Shown here in pieces: positions 7,249-22,471 of a stretch of DNA of 64,000 nucleotides. The notes beneath the pieces were generated by a model. That model was given only the letters and a program-made list of their open reading frames with translations, ran no database searches and was not told where the DNA came from. Each line of letters starts with the position of its first letter. Position 1 is the stretch's first letter. Source of the DNA: Deltaproteobacteria bacterium (GTDB taxonomy: Bacteria > Desulfobacterota > Desulfobacteria > Desulfobacterales > Desulfatibacillaceae); the NCBI GenBank assembly GCA_016235345.1, contig JACRLG010000024.1:62001-126000 (forward strand), given 5' to 3'. Made by a program: the position numbers and the translations under genes.

Positions 7249-7710
7249 TCATTTGACTGCCTCTATCTTAACGCTGTGCGGCTCAGACACAACATGTCCT
7301 CCAGGCACCACCGCACCATAGAATACCATTGTTAGCATTGCAGCTTGTTTGCTAATATCGTAAGAATCGGTCCGTCCCATTGATATATTAATCTCATCTT
7401 TGAGGGGGATCATCCATTTAGATACATTCCGCCTTCTTTCTTTATCGGCATAGTCGATTCTGGTAGCCGTAAACGGGAACTGATCGATAGATGAAAAGTC
7501 AACCCAATCAGGGGCGCTGCCAATTCGATAACACAGATGCACCTTGTAGGCGTGAAAACCGTCTTCAAAAGTGGAGAGGTCTTCTTGTGTCTCCACCAGG
7601 AATACACCGTAGGCACCCTCTCTGTGGATGGGCGACACATTCACAATGTGCACTGTTGCCGTACATGCGTGCAAATTGAAGAACATCATTAATAATGTGA
7701 GCCACTTCAT
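7249..7710 (-). CDS. Small putative lipoprotein, copy 1 of a tandem pair
   Basis: The protein starts MKWLTLLMMFFNLHACTATV, a short signal peptide with a lipobox-like LHAC, so it is probably lipid-anchored. The mature part (about 138 residues) is not a family I recognise. It is nearly identical to the product of the neighbouring copy at 7905-8363, including IHREGAYGVFLVETQEDL and the tail VVSEPHSVKIEAVK. The two copies differ mainly in the middle, for example YRIGSAPDWVDF against YRIGSSANGVYDIF. The frame is open ten codons upstream, but the chosen ATG gives the proper signal peptide. Confidence 0.6.
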   Translation of the reverse strand: MKWLTLLMMFFNLHACTATVHIVNVSPIHREGAYGVFLVETQEDLSTFEDGFHAYKVHLCYRIGSAPDWVDFSSIDQFPFTATRIDYADKERRRNVSKWMIPLKDEINISMGRTDSYDISKQAAMLTMVFYGAVVPGGHVVSEPHSVKIEAVK

Positions 7711-7814
7711 GGAATCCTCTGTTCTTAAGCTGGTAGTCACGAACGAATACTGGTCCTATTTCTGATTTTGGTCGGCACTCAATCTATCGCTTTCAGGAAG
7801 AACTTGCCAGCGGC
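7250..7814. repeat. Direct repeat unit 1 (lipoprotein gene plus Sel1 3' end)
   Basis: This stretch repeats at 7906-8467 with high identity. The unit covers the whole small lipoprotein gene and, at its right end, a fragment matching the last codons of the Sel1 gene. So the duplication included the boundary between the two genes and left a Sel1 tail fragment between the lipoprotein copies. Confidence 0.8.
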
Positions 7815-7904: not shown

Positions 7905-8363
7905 TCATTTGACTGCCTCTATCTTAACGCTGTGCGGCTCAGACACAACATGTCCTCCGCCCATTGTCGCACCATAGAGCACTATTATTAGTTCTGCAGC
8001 TTGTTTGCTAATATCGTAAGAATAAGTCCGTCCCGATATCCCGATCTCATGTTTTAGGGGGATCCGCCATTTAGATACATTCCGCCTTCTTTCTTTATCG
8101 GCATAGTCGATTCTGGTAGCCACAAACGGGAACTGATCTGCAGAAAAAATGTCGTAAACCCCATTGGCGGAGCTGCCAATTCGATAAAATACAGATACCT
8201 TGTAGGCGTGAAAACCGTCTTCAAAAGTGGAGAGGTCTTCTTGTGTCTCCACCAGGAATACACCGTAGGCGCCCTCTCTGTGGATGGGCGAAACATTCAC
8301 AATGTGCACTGTCGCCGTACATGCCTGCAAGAAGAACATCATTAATAATATGAACCACTTCAT
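7905..8363 (-). CDS. Small putative lipoprotein, copy 2 of a tandem pair
   Basis: This paralogue of the gene at 7249-7710 starts MKWFILLMMFFLQACTATV with lipobox LQAC and encodes about 152 residues. It keeps the same core and the same VVSEPHSVKIEAVK tail, but has an altered middle and one residue fewer overall. It lies 26 bases downstream of the stop codon of the Sel1 gene and is probably cotranscribed with it. Function is unknown; both copies look intact, which suggests recent duplication or continued selection. Confidence 0.6.
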   Translation of the reverse strand: MKWFILLMMFFLQACTATVHIVNVSPIHREGAYGVFLVETQEDLSTFEDGFHAYKVSVFYRIGSSANGVYDIFSADQFPFVATRIDYADKERRRNVSKWRIPLKHEIGISGRTYSYDISKQAAELIIVLYGATMGGGHVVSEPHSVKIEAVK

Positions 8364-8467
8364 GGAAGCCTCTGTTCTTGAGCTGGTAGTCACGGACGAA
8401 TACTGGTCCTGTTTCTGATTTTGGCCGGCACTCGATCTATCGCTTTCAGGAAGAACTTGTCAGCGGC
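7906..8467. repeat. Direct repeat unit 2 (lipoprotein gene plus Sel1 3' end)
   Basis: Second copy of the unit at 7250-7814, offset by 656 bases. Here the right end is still joined to the full Sel1 gene, so this is probably the parental arrangement. A short unrelated stretch (about 7815-7905) separates the copies. Confidence 0.8.
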
Positions 8468-8870: not shown

Positions 8871-8898
8871 TTGACATTAAATTTAATTAGTTTAAATT
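8871..8898 (+). promoter_or_regulatory. Candidate sigma-70 promoter of the TetR-glycyl radical operon
   Basis: TTGACA (8871-8876) is a perfect -35. TAAATT at 8893-8898 is a fair -10 with a 16-base spacer. The whole promoter is buried in the first operator palindrome, as expected for a repressor-controlled and autoregulated operon. Confidence 0.6.
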
Positions 8899-8932
8899 TA
8901 ATGTCATTAAATTTAAACTAATTAATTTAATG
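8875..8932. promoter_or_regulatory. Double palindromic operator upstream of the TetR gene
   Basis: Two adjacent AT-rich palindromes are separated by one base. The first (8875-8903) has perfect 12-bp half sites CATTAAATTTAA and TTAAATTTAATG around TTAGT. The second (8905-8932) is nearly the reverse complement of the first, with one base deleted. The 58-base block stands out sharply from the GC-rich surroundings. Position over the promoter and next to a tetR gene makes it the probable binding site for two repressor dimers. Confidence 0.8.
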
Positions 8933-9635: not shown

Positions 9636-12600
9636 ATGTTAAAGAACCTCCTGGAAGGAATGACCGGAAACTTTTCGGCGGGTCCGATGATTTTGCAGCG
9701 ACTGGAAAGGCTGTCCGGCCCGGGCAGGGGTGCTGCCCTCGACAGTCGTGGGTTTTTCTCCTTCAGCCGCAGCATCCCGGAAAAAAGCGTGAAGGCCCGT
9801 GGCATAAACGCCCTGGTTTACGGGCTTTTGCAACTTTTCGCCCACGCGTTCAATCTCAGGCCCGACCTTCGCCAATGGCTTACGGCCAACGGAAAGGGGA
9901 AGCCCGGAAAGCTCAAATTCGACAGGTATCTCGATTTTTCCGTGGGAATACGCTCCCGCGACAACCAGGTGAAACAAACCCTGGTCTTTGAGAACGGCAG
10001 GGTGAGGGCCATTTGGGGAATGCCGGAAAAAACCGACACCAGCCTGGTTTTCCGGACGCCGGAGCACGTTTTGGAAATGCTTCGGGCCACCCCGGACGAG
10101 GCCATGATCATGCTGGTGGAAAACCGCATGAACACCGAGGGCAACCTTGCCCTCACGAACCTGTTCAATTTCTACTTAAACCTCCTCTTGGGGAAAAAGC
10201 AGCAGGAAGAGGTGGACAAGCGGATCGCCGAAAATCGGAAGCGCCTTCTTGGTGAGGCCAAACCCCTATCTTTGGGGCGGCGGGAGGAGAAAAGCCAGCG
10301 GCGGAATTCCCGGATATCGGCCCGCTCCGTGGATAAGGGCTTGAAATACCTGGAAGATCCCTTTCTCCCCGAATGGGGGCTGGAGGACTTTCCCAGGCTT
10401 GGCGACATCCATTCCAAAATTTTCACCGTAAGGCCGAAAATCTGCGCCGAGCGGCCAAGGCTTCTCACCGAGTGGCACCGGGAAAACGGCTTCGAGACCG
10501 ACCGCGAGGGACGGCCCTGGAACCCGGAGCTCAGGCAGGCTTTGGCGCTTCAGCACCTTCTGAGCAACAAGAAGCCCATAGTGTGGGAGAACGACCTTCT
10601 GGGAGGCACAAGCGGCACCTCCTTCATAAGCCCCCTGATCTATCCCGACGCCTCAGGCACCACCATCTGGGGCGAGCTTTTTTCCTGCCGGGACCGGGAA
10701 CTGGTTCCCTACGAGGTGGACGACGAAACCATCAACGAGCTTCATTACGACATCTTTCCCTTCTGGAGCCGCCGGAACATAAGGGAATGGGTGCGCGACG
10801 AGTACGCTAGCCCCCTGTGCCAGAGAATCGACGAGCACATGGCGGCCTTCCTTATCTGGAAAACCATAGGAGCCAGCGAAACCATACCGGATTTCGAATC
10901 CATCCTCACCCTTGGAACATCGGGCCTCATCTCTAAGATGGAGGACGAGCTTTTGCGGGACAAGGAGGCGGACCGGAAGAAGATTGACACGCTTCGGGCC
11001 ATGATGATCAGCCTTCAGGGCGTTAACGCCTGCGCCCGGAACGTGGCTTCGGAGGCCCGGAACCAGGCGGCCCTTTGCAAAGACCACGCGCGCCGGGAGG
11101 AACTGGACAGGATTGCCAAGGCCCTGTCCCACGCGCCGGAGCGCCCGGCCCGGACCCTCTTCGAGGCGGTGCAGGCGGTGTGGATAGTAAAAATCGCCCT
11201 GAACATGGAAAACTCCAACGACGGCATGGGCTACGGACGCCTGGACCAGCTCCTTCAACCATATTTTGCCGCCGACATGGAGCTTATCCCAAGCCCCGCC
11301 GCACGGAGGGACTATGTCAAAAAGGCGGTGGAACTCCTGGGCTGCCTCTTTCTCAAGACCAAGGACCACACGACCTTGAACCCGGACCTTGCCAACCACA
11401 TCTTCGGCGGAAGCCCCCCCAGCCAGACCGTCACCGTGGGCGGCGTCACCCCCGACGGCGAGGACGCGGTCAATGACATGAGTTACGTGATTTTGAAGGT
11501 CACCGAGCTTCTGGGCCTGGACGACCCCAACGTTAACGTGCGCTACTCGCAGGAAAAGAACAGCGCCGAATTTTTGCGCAGGGCCAATGACGTCAACTAC
11601 ATCACAGGGGCCACACCCGCCATTCACAACGACAGCGCCATGATCGGGGCGCTTTCCCAACACGGCTACGACATCCGGGACATCAGGGACTGGGCCGCCA
11701 CCGGCTGCGTGGAGCCCACCATGAGCGGACGCCACTACGGCCACACCTCGGCCATCAACATCTCCATCGTAGCGGCCCTGGAAATGGCCTTAAACAACGG
11801 CCACCATCCCTTAATGGGATGGGACCTGGGGCCTCAAACGGGTGATATCAGCGCTAACGCCTTCCCCGACTTCGAGTCCTTTTTCAGGGCCTTCGAGGCC
11901 CAGTTCGGCTTTTTGATCGATCAGTCGGTGGAATACAACAATCTTTGCGGCAAGGTTTACCAGAAGTACCGGCCCTCGAACCTCCTGTCGGCCCTCACAC
12001 GCGGCTGCGTGGAAAAAGGACGCACGGTGGTCAACGGCGGGGCGAAAATCAATTCCACCGGAGCCACCTGCATAGGGCTGGCCGACGTGGCGGACTCGCT
12101 CATGGTGATCAAAAAGCTCGTGTTCGATCAAAAAAAGGTGAGCTTTCGGGAATTGAAGGAGGCCATAGACCGGAACTTCGAGGGCCACGAGGCCCTTCGC
12201 AAAATGGCCGTCAACCGTGTGGGCTTTTTCGGGTCAGGCGACCCGGAGGCCGTGGCAATGGCAAACCGGGTGGCGGGCTTCGCCCACGATTCCTACGCAA
12301 GCCGCGAAAACTACCGGGGAGGCGGGCATCACACCGGCTTCTGGTCCATGTCCAGCCACGCGGCCTACGGCAGGCTCACGGGAGCCCTTCCATCCGGGCG
12401 GCTCTCCGGCAAGCCCTTCACCCCCGGCCTCACCCCGGAGCCCAACGCGTCCCCGAACCTTCTGGACAACCTAAACGACGTGGCGCGCCTTGAATCCAAA
12501 AACCTGGACAACAACATAGCCTTCAACGTAAAGGTTGTGCCGGGGCTAAAGGACTCCCACGAAAAGGTGGTGGATTACATCCATGCATACTCGTTGACCT

Positions 12601-12788
12601 TTTTCCAGCAGGGCGGGATGCAAATCCAGATGAACGTGGTTTCCACCGAAATGCTGAAGGACGCCATGGCCCACCCGGAAAACTACCGGAACCTTCTGGT
12701 CAGGATTTCCGGCTACTGCGCCTTTTTCACCCAACTGGACGAAGACGCCCAGAGGGAGCTGATCGAACGCGCTGAATACGGCCTGTAA
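9636..12788 (+). CDS. Glycyl radical enzyme with N-terminal SCP2-like lipid-binding domain
   Basis: The 1050-residue protein is about 200-250 residues longer than usual for this superfamily. Residues ~55-190 resemble an SCP2 sterol-carrier domain (YLDFSVGIRSRDNQVKQTL, then VENRMNTEGNLALTNLF). After a charged linker, the PFL-like barrel starts near 270. The thiyl Cys is C691 in ATGCVEPT and the glycyl radical Gly is G1026 in VRISGYCAFF. The Cys-x-Glu arrangement matches dehydratases and C-N/C-S lyases such as glycerol dehydratase or CutC, and differs from the Cys-Cys of pyruvate formate-lyase. An SD (GAAGGAAGG) precedes the start. The SCP2 domain suggests a hydrophobic or acyl substrate, which is inference. 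The operon also holds tetR and an activase. Confidence 0.85.
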   Translation: MLKNLLEGMTGNFSAGPMILQRLERLSGPGRGAALDSRGFFSFSRSIPEKSVKARGINALVYGLLQLFAHAFNLRPDLRQWLTANGKGKPGKLKFDRYLDFSVGIRSRDNQVKQTLVFENGRVRAIWGMPEKTDTSLVFRTPEHVLEMLRATPDEAMIMLVENRMNTEGNLALTNLFNFYLNLLLGKKQQEEVDKRIAENRKRLLGEAKPLSLGRREEKSQRRNSRISARSVDKGLKYLEDPFLPEWGLEDFPRLGDIHSKIFTVRPKICAERPRLLTEWHRENGFETDREGRPWNPELRQALALQHLLSNKKPIVWENDLLGGTSGTSFISPLIYPDASGTTIWGELFSCRDRELVPYEVDDETINELHYDIFPFWSRRNIREWVRDEYASPLCQRIDEHMAAFLIWKTIGASETIPDFESILTLGTSGLISKMEDELLRDKEADRKKIDTLRAMMISLQGVNACARNVASEARNQAALCKDHARREELDRIAKALSHAPERPARTLFEAVQAVWIVKIALNMENSNDGMGYGRLDQLLQPYFAADMELIPSPAARRDYVKKAVELLGCLFLKTKDHTTLNPDLANHIFGGSPPSQTVTVGGVTPDGEDAVNDMSYVILKVTELLGLDDPNVNVRYSQEKNSAEFLRRANDVNYITGATPAIHNDSAMIGALSQHGYDIRDIRDWAATGCVEPTMSGRHYGHTSAINISIVAALEMALNNGHHPLMGWDLGPQTGDISANAFPDFESFFRAFEAQFGFLIDQSVEYNNLCGKVYQKYRPSNLLSALTRGCVEKGRTVVNGGAKINSTGATCIGLADVADSLMVIKKLVFDQKKVSFRELKEAIDRNFEGHEALRKMAVNRVGFFGSGDPEAVAMANRVAGFAHDSYASRENYRGGGHHTGFWSMSSHAAYGRLTGALPSGRLSGKPFTPGLTPEPNASPNLLDNLNDVARLESKNLDNNIAFNVKVVPGLKDSHEKVVDYIHAYSLTFFQQGGMQIQMNVVSTEMLKDAMAHPENYRNLLVRISGYCAFFTQLDEDAQRELIERAEYGL

Positions 12789-12997: not shown

Positions 12998-13918
12998 ATG
13001 GCGAAAAAGCCTCTCATACTGGACATCAAGGGGCACACCCTGGATGACGGGCCTGGGATACGGTCCGTCATCTTTTTCAAGGGCTGCCCCTTAAACTGCG
13101 TGTGGTGCCACAACCCCGAAAGCAAGAAGCCGGAGCCCGAAATCTCCTTCGACCCCAAGGAATGCGTCGGCTGCAAGGCCTGTGTCGACGCCTGCCCGGA
13201 AGGCACCATCTCCTTCGACCTGCCCCATCGCGTGGACCGCGCCCGCTGCACCCTTTGCATGGCCTGCGCCGAGGCCTGTCCTTCCAAGGCCCTGGCCCCG
13301 GTGGGAAAGCTCATGGAGATCGAGGACATCGTGGACGCCGTCATCCGCTACAAGCCCTTTTTCGATACGTCGGGCGGCGGCGTCACCCTCTCCGGCGGGG
13401 AGCCCACCCTGTTCCCGGAATTTTTGTCCGGGGTGTTGAAGGCTCTGAAGGCCGCAGGTATTCACACGCTTCTGGAAACCAGCGGCCACTTTCTACGGGA
13501 GCGTTTTGAAACCCTCATCCTTCCCTGGGTGGACGACATCTACATGGACATCAAGTTCATCTCCCCCGATTCCCACAAGAAGCATTGCGGGATTCCCAAC
13601 GAAAGGATCCTCGATAACTTTCGCTGGCTCCACTCCATAAAAGAGGGCAGGGGGATCGGGCTTCTTCCGCGCACCCCCCTGGTGCCCGGCATCACCGACA
13701 CGGAGGAAAATCTTTCGGCCATCGCAGGCTTTCTTAAAGACCTGAACGTGGAAAAGGCGGCCCTTCTGGCCTACAACCCGCTCTGGCACGACAAGAACTT
13801 CAAGATCGGCGAGGAAAACATCCTTGGCAGGGAAGAGATCATGACAAAGTGGATGAGCCGGGAGCGTATCGGGGAATGCGAGGCTATTTTCAAGGAAGCG
13901 GGAATAAGGCTTGTGTGA
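12998..13918 (+). CDS. Glycyl radical enzyme activating enzyme (radical SAM, two [4Fe-4S] ferredoxin motifs)
   Basis: The 306-residue protein starts MAKKPLILDIKGHTLDDGPG, with AAAGGA upstream; the longer open frame runs through a repeat element. The radical SAM triad is C30-x3-C34-x2-C37 (FKGCPLNCVWCHNPES). An inserted ferredoxin domain has two CxxCxxCxxxC sets, C56/59/62/66 and C84/87/90/94, as in activases of non-PFL glycyl radical enzymes. The GGEPT motif for SAM amino-group binding is present as LSGGEPTLFPEF. It abstracts a hydrogen from the glycine (G1026) of the upstream enzyme. Because the second glycyl radical enzyme at 20054 lacks its own activase, this one could serve both. Confidence 0.92.
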   Translation: MAKKPLILDIKGHTLDDGPGIRSVIFFKGCPLNCVWCHNPESKKPEPEISFDPKECVGCKACVDACPEGTISFDLPHRVDRARCTLCMACAEACPSKALAPVGKLMEIEDIVDAVIRYKPFFDTSGGGVTLSGGEPTLFPEFLSGVLKALKAAGIHTLLETSGHFLRERFETLILPWVDDIYMDIKFISPDSHKKHCGIPNERILDNFRWLHSIKEGRGIGLLPRTPLVPGITDTEENLSAIAGFLKDLNVEKAALLAYNPLWHDKNFKIGEENILGREEIMTKWMSRERIGECEAIFKEAGIRLV

Positions 13919-19918: not shown

Positions 19919-20053
19919 CGCTCAATCCCCCCCGGTGTTCCGTAACCCGCATCAACCGGCATTATGCATAAGCCCGAAGAGAGCCCAAGGCTTAGGGTTG
20001 CTTTTTGCTCATCCGGGCGGGTGCTTGCCCGGAAAAAAGTTCAGGAGCGGCAG

Positions 20054-22471
20054 ATGACAGTCAGCCAGTACGAAACGAAAGAGAACCGAGCCGTTCGGTT
20101 GAGGGCCGTGCCCCAGCCCGACTCCATCCGCATAAGGAAGCTGAAAAAGGCGGTGATGGAGGCCTCCCCCGGAGTCTGCCCTGAGCGCGCCCTTATCTGG
20201 ACCGATTATTTCCGGGACAAGTCCAACCGGTCCAAGCCCGCGCCGGTTCAGATAGCCGAGGCCCTGAGCCGGGTTCTCGCCGAAAAGTCCGCCACGGTTT
20301 ACGACGATGAAATCATAGTGGGCAATTACAGCAGCCACAGGGTGGGGGGAAACATCTTTCCGGAGCTTCACGGCGCTGCCGTGCTTCTGGACCTCTTCCG
20401 CATTCCCTTCAGAAAAACCTCGCCCCTCAGGCTTTCTTCCTCCGACGCCGTGAAACTGAGCGCCATACTGCCCTTCTGGTCCACCCGATTTCTCGCCGCA
20501 AGGGCCTTCCCGTCCCGGATCGAGAGCCTTAAGTTCACCGCCGACCAACTGTCCGCACGGTTTTACCTGATAAACGAGACAGGCGGCATAAGCCATTTTC
20601 TGCCCGATTACGAAAAGCTCATCAACAAGGGAGCGGAAGGGATCGCAGAAGAGGCGGCGGAGCGCCAGAGGCAGGCCGAATACGGAAGCGGGCAGTGGGC
20701 GTTTTACGAGGGCGTGATCATTGCGATGACGGGGCTTTCAAGGTTCGGAGAGCGCTACGCCGAACTTTGCGGGAAAATGGCCGAGCGGGCAAAGGACCCG
20801 GAGCGCGCCAGGGAGCTTATGGAGATCGCCGAAACCTGCCGAAGGGTTCCCAAAAAACCCGCCCGCACCTTAAGGGAGGCGGTTCAGTCGCTTTTCTTCG
20901 CCCAGGTGGCCATCAACCTGGAAAGCCTCGACAACTCGGTGTGTCCGGGGCGCATGGATCAATACCTTTTTCCGTTCTACAAGGCTGACCTGGACGCGGG
21001 CAGGCTCGACCGCGAACGCGCCAAGGAGATACTTTCGGCCTTTTCCATAAAGATGAGTGAGATAGTGCCTGTTTTTTCAGGGGCAATAACCCGGTATCAC
21101 GGGGGCATGTTCAACGGCCAGGTGGTCTGCGTGGGCGGAACCGACGAAAAGGGCCTCGATTCGTCCAACGAGCTTTCCTTCATCTTCCTGGAGATCATGG
21201 ACGAGCTTCGGATGCGCCAGCCCAACTATCTTGCCCGGATGCACAAAAACTCCCCTGACGAGTATCGGGAAAAGGTCTATTCCGTGCTTTCGGCTGGGGC
21301 CAATTCCCCGGCTGTCTACAACGACGAGGTGATAGTCCCGAACCTCGTTCGCGGTGGACTGTCTCTCGCCGACGCACGCAATTACTCGCCCGTGGGCTGC
21401 GTGGAGCCGGTCTGCCAGGCAAAGAGCTTCTCCTCCACCGACGCGGCCCTGGTGAACGCCCCCCTTGCCCTGGAGCTCGCCCTCAACCAGGGTCGGCGCT
21501 TCGGCTCGCACCTAAGAACCGGCGTCCCCACCGCTCCCGTAAGCGAGATGCGGACCTTTGACGAGGTTAGGGACGCCTTTCTCGCCCAGTTGGGCCACAT
21601 CGTGGAAAAGCTGATCCTGGACCTCCAGGCCATAGAGCGGGCCAACGCCAGATTCCACCCCACGCCCCTTTCGTCCGGCCTGATCGACGGTTGTCTCGAT
21701 AAAGGCATCTGCTCCACGGCGGGCGGCGCGGTCTACAATTTTTCGGGCATCCAGTGCGTGGGGCCAGCCGAGGTCGGCGACAGCCTTGCCGCCATCGAGC
21801 AGGCGGTCTTCATCGAAAAGCGTTTCAGCCTTTCCGATCTTGTTGGGCATCTCAAATCGAACCTGGAAGACGAGGCGGTGAGGCGCTACCTTCTTTCGCT
21901 TCCCAAGTTCGGAAACGACCTCGAGAAGGCTGATCTGCACACGGCCTGGGTGGTTTCCTCCTTCCACGACCAGCTTCTCGGACGGAAGAACACCCGTGGC
22001 GGGCCTTACACGATGGGGCTTTACTCGGTGACCGTCCACGCCCATTTCGGGAGCGTCACCGGGGCGCTTCCCAGCGGACGCCGAAGGGGCGAGCCCTTCG
22101 CCAGCGGCATAGCCCCCGGAAACGGCAGGGACCGCAAGGGGCCAACGGCCCTGGTGAACTCGGTGAACAGGCTGGATTTCACCAAGGCCCAAAACGGGGT
22201 CAACTTTAACCTGAAATTCGACGGCAACACCGTAAGGGGCAAAAAGGGCGCGAAACTCCTGGACAGCCTCATCGGGGCCTATTTTACAGGCGGGGGGATG
22301 CAGGCCCAGGTGAACGTGATAAGCCCGGAAGTCCTCCTGGAGGCCCGGAACAACCCGGAGCGCCATCCCGGCCTTCTGGTTCGGGTCTCCGGCTATTCGG
22401 CCTATTTCAACGATCTCACACCCGGACTCAAGGACGACGTCATCCGCCGCACGAGCCTTCAGGGGATTTAG
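20054..22471 (+). CDS. Glycyl radical enzyme, dehydratase/lyase type
   Basis: The chosen ATG follows CAGGAGCGG; an upstream in-frame ATG at 19964 lacks a good site. The 805-residue protein has normal length for the family. The thiyl Cys is C449 in SPVGCVEPVCQ and the radical Gly is G780 in VRVSGYSAYF. The Cys-x-Glu pair indicates a dehydratase or C-N/C-S lyase mechanism and excludes pyruvate formate-lyase. Other landmarks are PARTLREAVQSLFFAQVAIN and TGGGMQAQVNVIS. The substrate cannot be assigned from sequence alone. No activase is adjacent; the one at 12998 is the nearest. A small lipoprotein gene follows after 24 bases. Confidence 0.87.
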   Translation: MTVSQYETKENRAVRLRAVPQPDSIRIRKLKKAVMEASPGVCPERALIWTDYFRDKSNRSKPAPVQIAEALSRVLAEKSATVYDDEIIVGNYSSHRVGGNIFPELHGAAVLLDLFRIPFRKTSPLRLSSSDAVKLSAILPFWSTRFLAARAFPSRIESLKFTADQLSARFYLINETGGISHFLPDYEKLINKGAEGIAEEAAERQRQAEYGSGQWAFYEGVIIAMTGLSRFGERYAELCGKMAERAKDPERARELMEIAETCRRVPKKPARTLREAVQSLFFAQVAINLESLDNSVCPGRMDQYLFPFYKADLDAGRLDRERAKEILSAFSIKMSEIVPVFSGAITRYHGGMFNGQVVCVGGTDEKGLDSSNELSFIFLEIMDELRMRQPNYLARMHKNSPDEYREKVYSVLSAGANSPAVYNDEVIVPNLVRGGLSLADARNYSPVGCVEPVCQAKSFSSTDAALVNAPLALELALNQGRRFGSHLRTGVPTAPVSEMRTFDEVRDAFLAQLGHIVEKLILDLQAIERANARFHPTPLSSGLIDGCLDKGICSTAGGAVYNFSGIQCVGPAEVGDSLAAIEQAVFIEKRFSLSDLVGHLKSNLEDEAVRRYLLSLPKFGNDLEKADLHTAWVVSSFHDQLLGRKNTRGGPYTMGLYSVTVHAHFGSVTGALPSGRRRGEPFASGIAPGNGRDRKGPTALVNSVNRLDFTKAQNGVNFNLKFDGNTVRGKKGAKLLDSLIGAYFTGGGMQAQVNVISPEVLLEARNNPERHPGLLVRVSGYSAYFNDLTPGLKDDVIRRTSLQGI

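Follow-up and report, generated by a model that had tools for sequence, protein, structure and literature searches.

The window, a 64,000-nucleotide stretch of a contig from an anaerobic Desulfatibacillaceae bacterium, encodes at 9636-12788 a complete, oxygen-sensitive glycyl radical enzyme (GRE) with an SCP2-fold domain at its N-terminus, and this fusion is a widespread family rather than a lone event. The same association also occurs in a split form, with enzyme and SCP2 protein encoded by neighbouring genes. Collectively our data suggest that these GREs are a clade not described before, which has a lipid-carrier module either fused or as a separate protein. We propose, with a probability of roughly 0.6, that the window protein is an eliminase-type GRE, akin to glycerol dehydratase, HypD and CutC, acting on a substrate whose hydrophobic tail is presented by the enzyme's own SCP2 domain.

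The features of the locus are collected in Table 1. The GRE gene starts at an ATG preceded by the Shine-Dalgarno-like AAGGAAGG. Both catalytic Pfam domains score well above their cut-offs, and C691, E693 and G1026 are invariant in all 22 aligned family members, which bears out the initial annotation of a complete GRE with a Cys-x-Glu motif. The genes for TetR, GRE and activase follow one another directly, with 13 bases between the end of the TetR gene and the start of the GRE. A TetR repressor and a dedicated activase had been predicted beside the enzyme: the two TetR domain matches place the former as claimed, and the gene directly after the GRE exceeds the cut-off of the activase model. The activase carries the CxxxCxxC motif in KGCPLNCVWC, and its start is probably the ATG at 12998, which has GAAAGGA upstream. 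Ahead of the TetR gene lies a sigma-70-like promoter (TTGACA at 8871, TAAATT ending at 8898) overlapped by two palindromes, one with fully (100%) complementary arms (8872-8886/8892-8906) and one with arms that are 96% complementary (8880-8903/8905-8928). Further upstream, on the reverse strand, 7249-7740 and 7905-8393 encode two tandem, near-alike, secreted-looking short proteins of 163 and 162 aa, probably the result of a recent duplication.

Table 1. Features of the SCP2-GRE locus; positions are those of the window, residues those of the protein concerned.
Feature	Position	Strand	Evidence
Promoter and operator-like palindromes ahead of the TetR-GRE-activase genes	8871..8932	+	Motif and complementary arms
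TetR-family regulator, 230 aa	8930..9622	+	TetR_N E 1.3e-8, TetR_C_33 E 5e-8
SCP2-fused glycyl radical enzyme, 1050 aa, ATG start	9636..12788	+	Open frame, Pfam and model
SCP2-fold domain, about residues 51-187	9786..10196	+	Model of residues 48-230; VIA aligned ranges and Foldseek
PFL-like catalytic barrel, residues 263-912	10422..12371	+	Pfam PF02901 E 4e-164, 548.2 bits vs cut-off 24.3
C691-V-E693 active-site motif (GCVEP)	11706..11714	+	Alignment; equals C433/E435 of glycerol dehydratase 1r8w
Glycyl radical domain, residues 929-1032	12420..12731	+	Pfam PF01228 E 8.9e-21, 74.9 bits vs cut-off 22.2
G1026 codon, radical glycine in RISGY	12711-12713	+	Gly_radical domain
Radical SAM activase	12998..13918 (open frame from 12887)	+	TIGR02494 265.5 bits vs cut-off 174.35

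When the N-terminus of the window protein was scanned alone, no Pfam SCP2 model was matched at E<=1 (the gathering score of PF02036 was not reached), and a PDB sequence search with the N-terminal 270 residues gave zero matches. Homologous N-termini scanned singly matched Pfam SCP2 at E<=10 in 14 of 36 cases (best E 2.5e-5), and no other Pfam family was matched by more than two of the 36. A profile of these 36 rows retrieved only three PDB sequences at E<=10, all of them SCP2 at weak E-values of 0.38-0.43. Comparison of the family profile by hhalign with five Pfam-labelled SCP2 domains of one genome gave a moderate match (probability 53, E 1.3e-4), against E 0.47 for an unrelated control.

Residues 48-230 were modelled with AlphaFold2 (mean pLDDT 87.9, pTM 0.71). 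The best 45 Foldseek rows for this model were all of SCP2 fold, led by UbiJ (E 3.6e-6) and including the SCP2-like domains of alkylsulfatases, and the best 31 VIA rows were again SCP2-fold, with Z from 12.3 to 7.7 and the first other fold at Z 7.1. Taking the profile and model evidence together, we consider it established that about residues 51-187 have the SCP2 fold. The SCP2-like segment of the initial annotation is thus recovered by Foldseek and VIA, though Pfam misses it in the window protein itself. The extension is shorter than the approximately 270 residues first given: the GRE fold begins near residues 226-253, leaving about 225-250 residues, and in the full-length model a long helix (171-207) follows the SCP2 part.

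The N-terminal profile was run on 291 genomes of the order and found a match at E<=1e-6 in 70 of them. At E<=1e-40 there were 72 matches, 65 of which fall within open frames of at least 850 aa. A scan of genome contigs returned 24 relatives, including Desulfobacterota, Myxococcota, Spirochaetota and one Lachnospiraceae bin; outside the order, SCP2-GREs come from bins of Spirochaetota, Myxococcota and Bacillota, and the organism that best matches the window is a Desulfatibacillaceae bin. Among plasmid records, 143 match the GRE part and none covers 80% of the window protein in one place. In one other genome about 1.45 kb of sequence breaks up the SCP2-GRE gene (L195 7019-8476) near query residue 610, within the GRE domain.

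The window's own genome encodes seven PFL-like GREs altogether, of which two are SCP2-GREs (the window locus and one on contig C16). A second GRE in the window, at 19964-22471 on the forward strand (835 aa, GCVEP), lies ten kilobases away, lacks an SCP2 domain and has no adjoining activase among the listed frames; in the reference tree its clade is sister to the SCP2-GREs. Four more GREs of 842-869 aa occur in the same genome (G000 C1:113125, C1:116289, C15:57606 and C31:3624); they show 25-28% identity, and we take them to be possibly alkylsuccinate synthase-like. Other SCP2 fusions were seen in one genome (L109 6092-8260 and 8366-11122; L110 6115-9135) in three architectures, namely MaoC-SDR-SCP2 (MFE-2-like), SDR-SCP2 with a ChsH2-like part, and an AMP-binding domain with three SCP2 domains.

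The nearest GRE without the extension, at 40% identity, is found in genome G049, where it is followed about 25 bases downstream by a gene for a 174-aa protein and then by the activase. This small protein has a sub-threshold Pfam SCP2 match (E 0.0093) and aligns with the fused N-terminal profile by hhalign at probability 98 and E 1.6e-13. In total 23 free-standing SCP2 genes were found in short frames, the G049 query included. In all 22 loci whose contig reaches far enough, the SCP2 gene lies directly downstream of a GRE gene, often only a few bases away or overlapping it; at the 23rd (L142) the contig begins at the SCP2 gene. An activase stands alongside in 20 of the 23 loci, the exceptions being L133, L141 and L143. 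That one association recurs in two gene arrangements is, in our view, the strongest sign of a joint function of carrier and enzyme. Two further families recur in the split loci. One, an unnamed two-repeat family that we call c4, is present in 10 of 21 (for example L138 948-4119 and L144 3820-10795), with zero Pfam matches for the 4 of its 10 members scanned and none in the PDB for a profile of 7 members. The other, DUF6765, is encoded in 8 of 21, and a profile of 7 of these 8 likewise found no PDB match. At L146 (3922-6295) a split-type GRE is read in two frames of 367 and 447 aa.

Many of the 41 fused loci (from which L065 was dropped as a copy of L009) end at contig ends. An activase-cluster gene is present in 23 of them and a TetR-cluster gene in 20. 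A short-chain dehydrogenase (SDR) lies directly downstream of the GRE or activase in eight (L002, L006, L022, L063, L064, L066, L067 and L070). Three of these consist of a 3-beta-HSD/epimerase half fused to a classical SDR; the L002 gene is cut by the contig end and shows the first half only, with HpnA, OleD and SdmB as the best, though distant, relatives. The window locus has no SDR downstream, like the other loci among the 33 of 41 without one directly downstream, many of which are cut at contig ends. The HpnA-like neighbours hint at endogenous hopanoids as substrate, which we rejected: squalene-hopene cyclase was found in only 7 of the 291 genomes, and a single one of these (G220) also belongs to the 70 genomes that match the SCP2-GRE domain.

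We then placed the family among known GREs using quick SH-aLRT trees, built without bootstrap and with truncated GREs left out (fused below 960 aa, split below 780 aa). In the main tree the 37 fused rows group as one clade (SH-aLRT 100) and the 18 split rows as its sister (99); their union is set off from 13 other GREs at 100. A reference tree with CutC and HpsG rows, for which 19 fused and 9 split rows were picked from the main tree, kept the fused and split clades apart from both, so that clustering with these families of small polar substrate, named at the outset as a refuting outcome, was not observed. No HypD reference sequence was found in the 10 genomes searched, and the trees consequently hold zero HypD rows. 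None of the NCBIfam equivalog cut-offs was reached by the window protein. The best-scoring model, TIGR01774 (PFL2/glycerol dehydratase), gave 480.6 against a cut-off of 678.2, followed by HypD (trans-4-hydroxy-L-proline dehydratase, NF043068; 386.7 against 1100), CutC (choline TMA-lyase, TIGR04394; 372.7 against 1050) and HpsG ((2S)-3-sulfopropanediol dehydratase, NF048011; 347.5 against 1000). The full-length model (mean pLDDT 80.8, pTM 0.85) has as its closest solved folds the glycerol/1,2-propanediol dehydratases 1r8w, 9rcp and 5i2g (Z 39.6-39.4; for 1r8w Z 39.6 over 769 residues, rmsd 2.3). CutC and HypD follow about one Z unit below, which is a near tie.

The active-site pocket was compared column by column in two alignments, one made by phmmer to 1r8w and CutC and one by MAFFT. 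C691, E693 and T704 are kept in all 19 fused rows. Column 415, equivalent to glycerol dehydratase H164 and to the CutC aspartate column, is H in 16 of the 19, E in the window protein and its nearest relative L074, and Q in L079. The same three proteins have D in column 529 (A, T or S in the other 16), S or N in column 596 (D or T elsewhere) and N or E in column 708 (M or L elsewhere). The columns of 1r8w H164, H281, Y339 and D447 hold E415, D529, S596 and S705 in the window protein. H164, H281 and D447 are substrate-contact residues of 1r8w. This glycerol/propanediol dehydratase contact set is absent from the window protein, and of its columns most relatives retain just that of H164, with H415. 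Judged by these columns, the pocket has changed on the branch of the window protein (H415E, A529D), so that this protein probably acts on a different substrate from most of its relatives.

Based on this data, we infer the following scheme for the chemistry and substrate class. The radical SAM activase would put the radical on G1026, from which C691 would become a thiyl radical and abstract a substrate hydrogen, and E693 would aid the departure of a hydroxyl, amine or similar group to leave an aldehyde or ketone. A radical elimination to such a carbonyl is what the Cys-x-Glu motif, the dehydratase-like fold and the carbonyl-processing SDR neighbours point to. The product would probably pass to the SDR where one is encoded. 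The SCP2 domain, for which we infer lipid binding by analogy, would hold or deliver the hydrophobic tail, as proposed for UbiJ and UbiT in ubiquinone synthesis, and in the split clade a separate SCP2 subunit would do this job. The TetR protein may be autoregulated through the palindromes and so switch the operon. A lipid-like substrate is backed circumstantially by the SCP2 fold, the unfused GRE-SCP2-activase operons and the neighbouring SDRs, and candidates include long-chain diols, alkylglycerols and hydroxylated or amino lipids. The proposal is weakened by the failure of Pfam to find SCP2 in the window protein itself, and by the lack of a directly downstream SDR in the window and most fused loci.

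SCP2-like domains may also serve as scaffolds, and we count this against the main reading. The domain could be a scaffold or membrane-docking module for the GRE, the activase or an SDR, with a substrate that is small and polar, as are the diols used by the nearest solved GREs. UbiJ, the best Foldseek match, is also described as a membrane-located complex organiser, and the helix at 171-207 could bind partners. We nevertheless consider such a role rather unlikely, given that the SCP2 fold is retained, that alkylsulfatases and ligand-bound SCP2s are among the best VIA rows, and that the neighbouring SDRs include OleD/HpnA/3-beta-HSD-like ones. The more acidic pocket of the window branch (E415, D529) does not by itself point to a greasy substrate, and it would suit a lipid-bound counterpart of CutC, namely a C-N lyase whose target is an amino or quaternary-ammonium head group on a lipophilic molecule. 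E415 occupies the column that is D in 4/4 CutC rows (the choline contact), D529 would supply a second acid, and T704 is also T in all CutC rows. This proposal appears improbable, as position 596 is S rather than F and 708 is N rather than Y in comparison with CutC, the CutC family score is far below its cut-off and most of the family (16/19) has H415.

The Cys-x-Glu motif also occurs in arylacetate decarboxylases, and the genome's four GREs of 842-869 aa look like alkylsuccinate synthases, so that a decarboxylase or fumarate-adding enzyme working on a hydrophobic acid or hydrocarbon might be considered instead of an eliminase. The comparisons make this very improbable: the decarboxylase models score only 261.3 and 212.1 bits, far under HypD and CutC, and the diol dehydratases rank first in structure, whereas decarboxylases reach Z 34.6-33.8 and succinate synthases 34.1-31.4. 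A more specific and highly speculative version of the elimination reading is radical dehydration of SCP2-presented, membrane-derived alkyl lipids such as 1-O-alkylglycerol, that is, an O2-free opening of ether lipids by an undescribed GRE branch, in which the window protein would represent another offshoot, its pocket re-cut for a different head group. The 1-O-alkylglycerol diol would give a 3-alkoxyaldehyde, from which oxidation and retro-Michael cleavage would then release the alcohol. Desulfatibacillum alkenivorans produces ether lipids of the alkylglycerol type (PMC11150832), which renders such a substrate just conceivable.

Among characterized systems, the B12-independent glycerol/1,2-propanediol dehydratases share the Cys-x-Glu motif, the Gly loop and the closest fold with the window protein, at about 26-28% identity, but have no SCP2 domain. 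CutC is likewise a GRE with Cys-x-Glu and T at column 704, but forms its own clade in the reference tree; some CutC proteins (9f3w) also have a long N-terminal extension, part of which aligns with residues 416-623 of the query GRE and not with the SCP2 part. The alkylsulfatases Pisa1 and SdsA1, among the best VIA rows (Z 12.3 and 11.1), combine a catalytic and an SCP2-like domain in one chain and have an alkyl substrate; these are, however, hydrolases and their SCP2-like domain is C-terminal. The benzylsuccinate and alkylsuccinate synthases are GREs with hydrophobic substrates and small extra subunits, which to our knowledge are not SCP2, and they are structurally more distant. UbiJ and UbiT share the SCP2 fold, but they work with other enzymes of the Ubi pathway, among them U32-family UbiU-UbiV, and not with GREs. 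According to PMC6747719, UbiT is an SCP2 protein of 174 aa that assists an O2-independent enzyme and pathway, and in two Zymomonas genomes it is fused to UbiU. Hydrophobic intermediates are reported to be bound by the SCP2 domain of UbiJ, and the same is proposed for that of UbiT (PMC6747719 and PMC9499169).

The open-literature listings that we searched contained no paper on a GRE paired with SCP2 or another lipid carrier, and none was found in the PDB by N-terminal sequence, in line with the initial view that the architecture has no characterized precedent. Most of the PDB GREs compared here use small polar substrates, and others join hydrocarbons to fumarate with the help of other small subunits. 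If our proposal is true, a GRE branch with a dedicated carrier module would extend radical enzymology to lipids. The split clade lets the carrier be added or omitted directly, and the family offers a testable lead to how anaerobes may handle hydroxylated, ether or amino lipids without oxygen.
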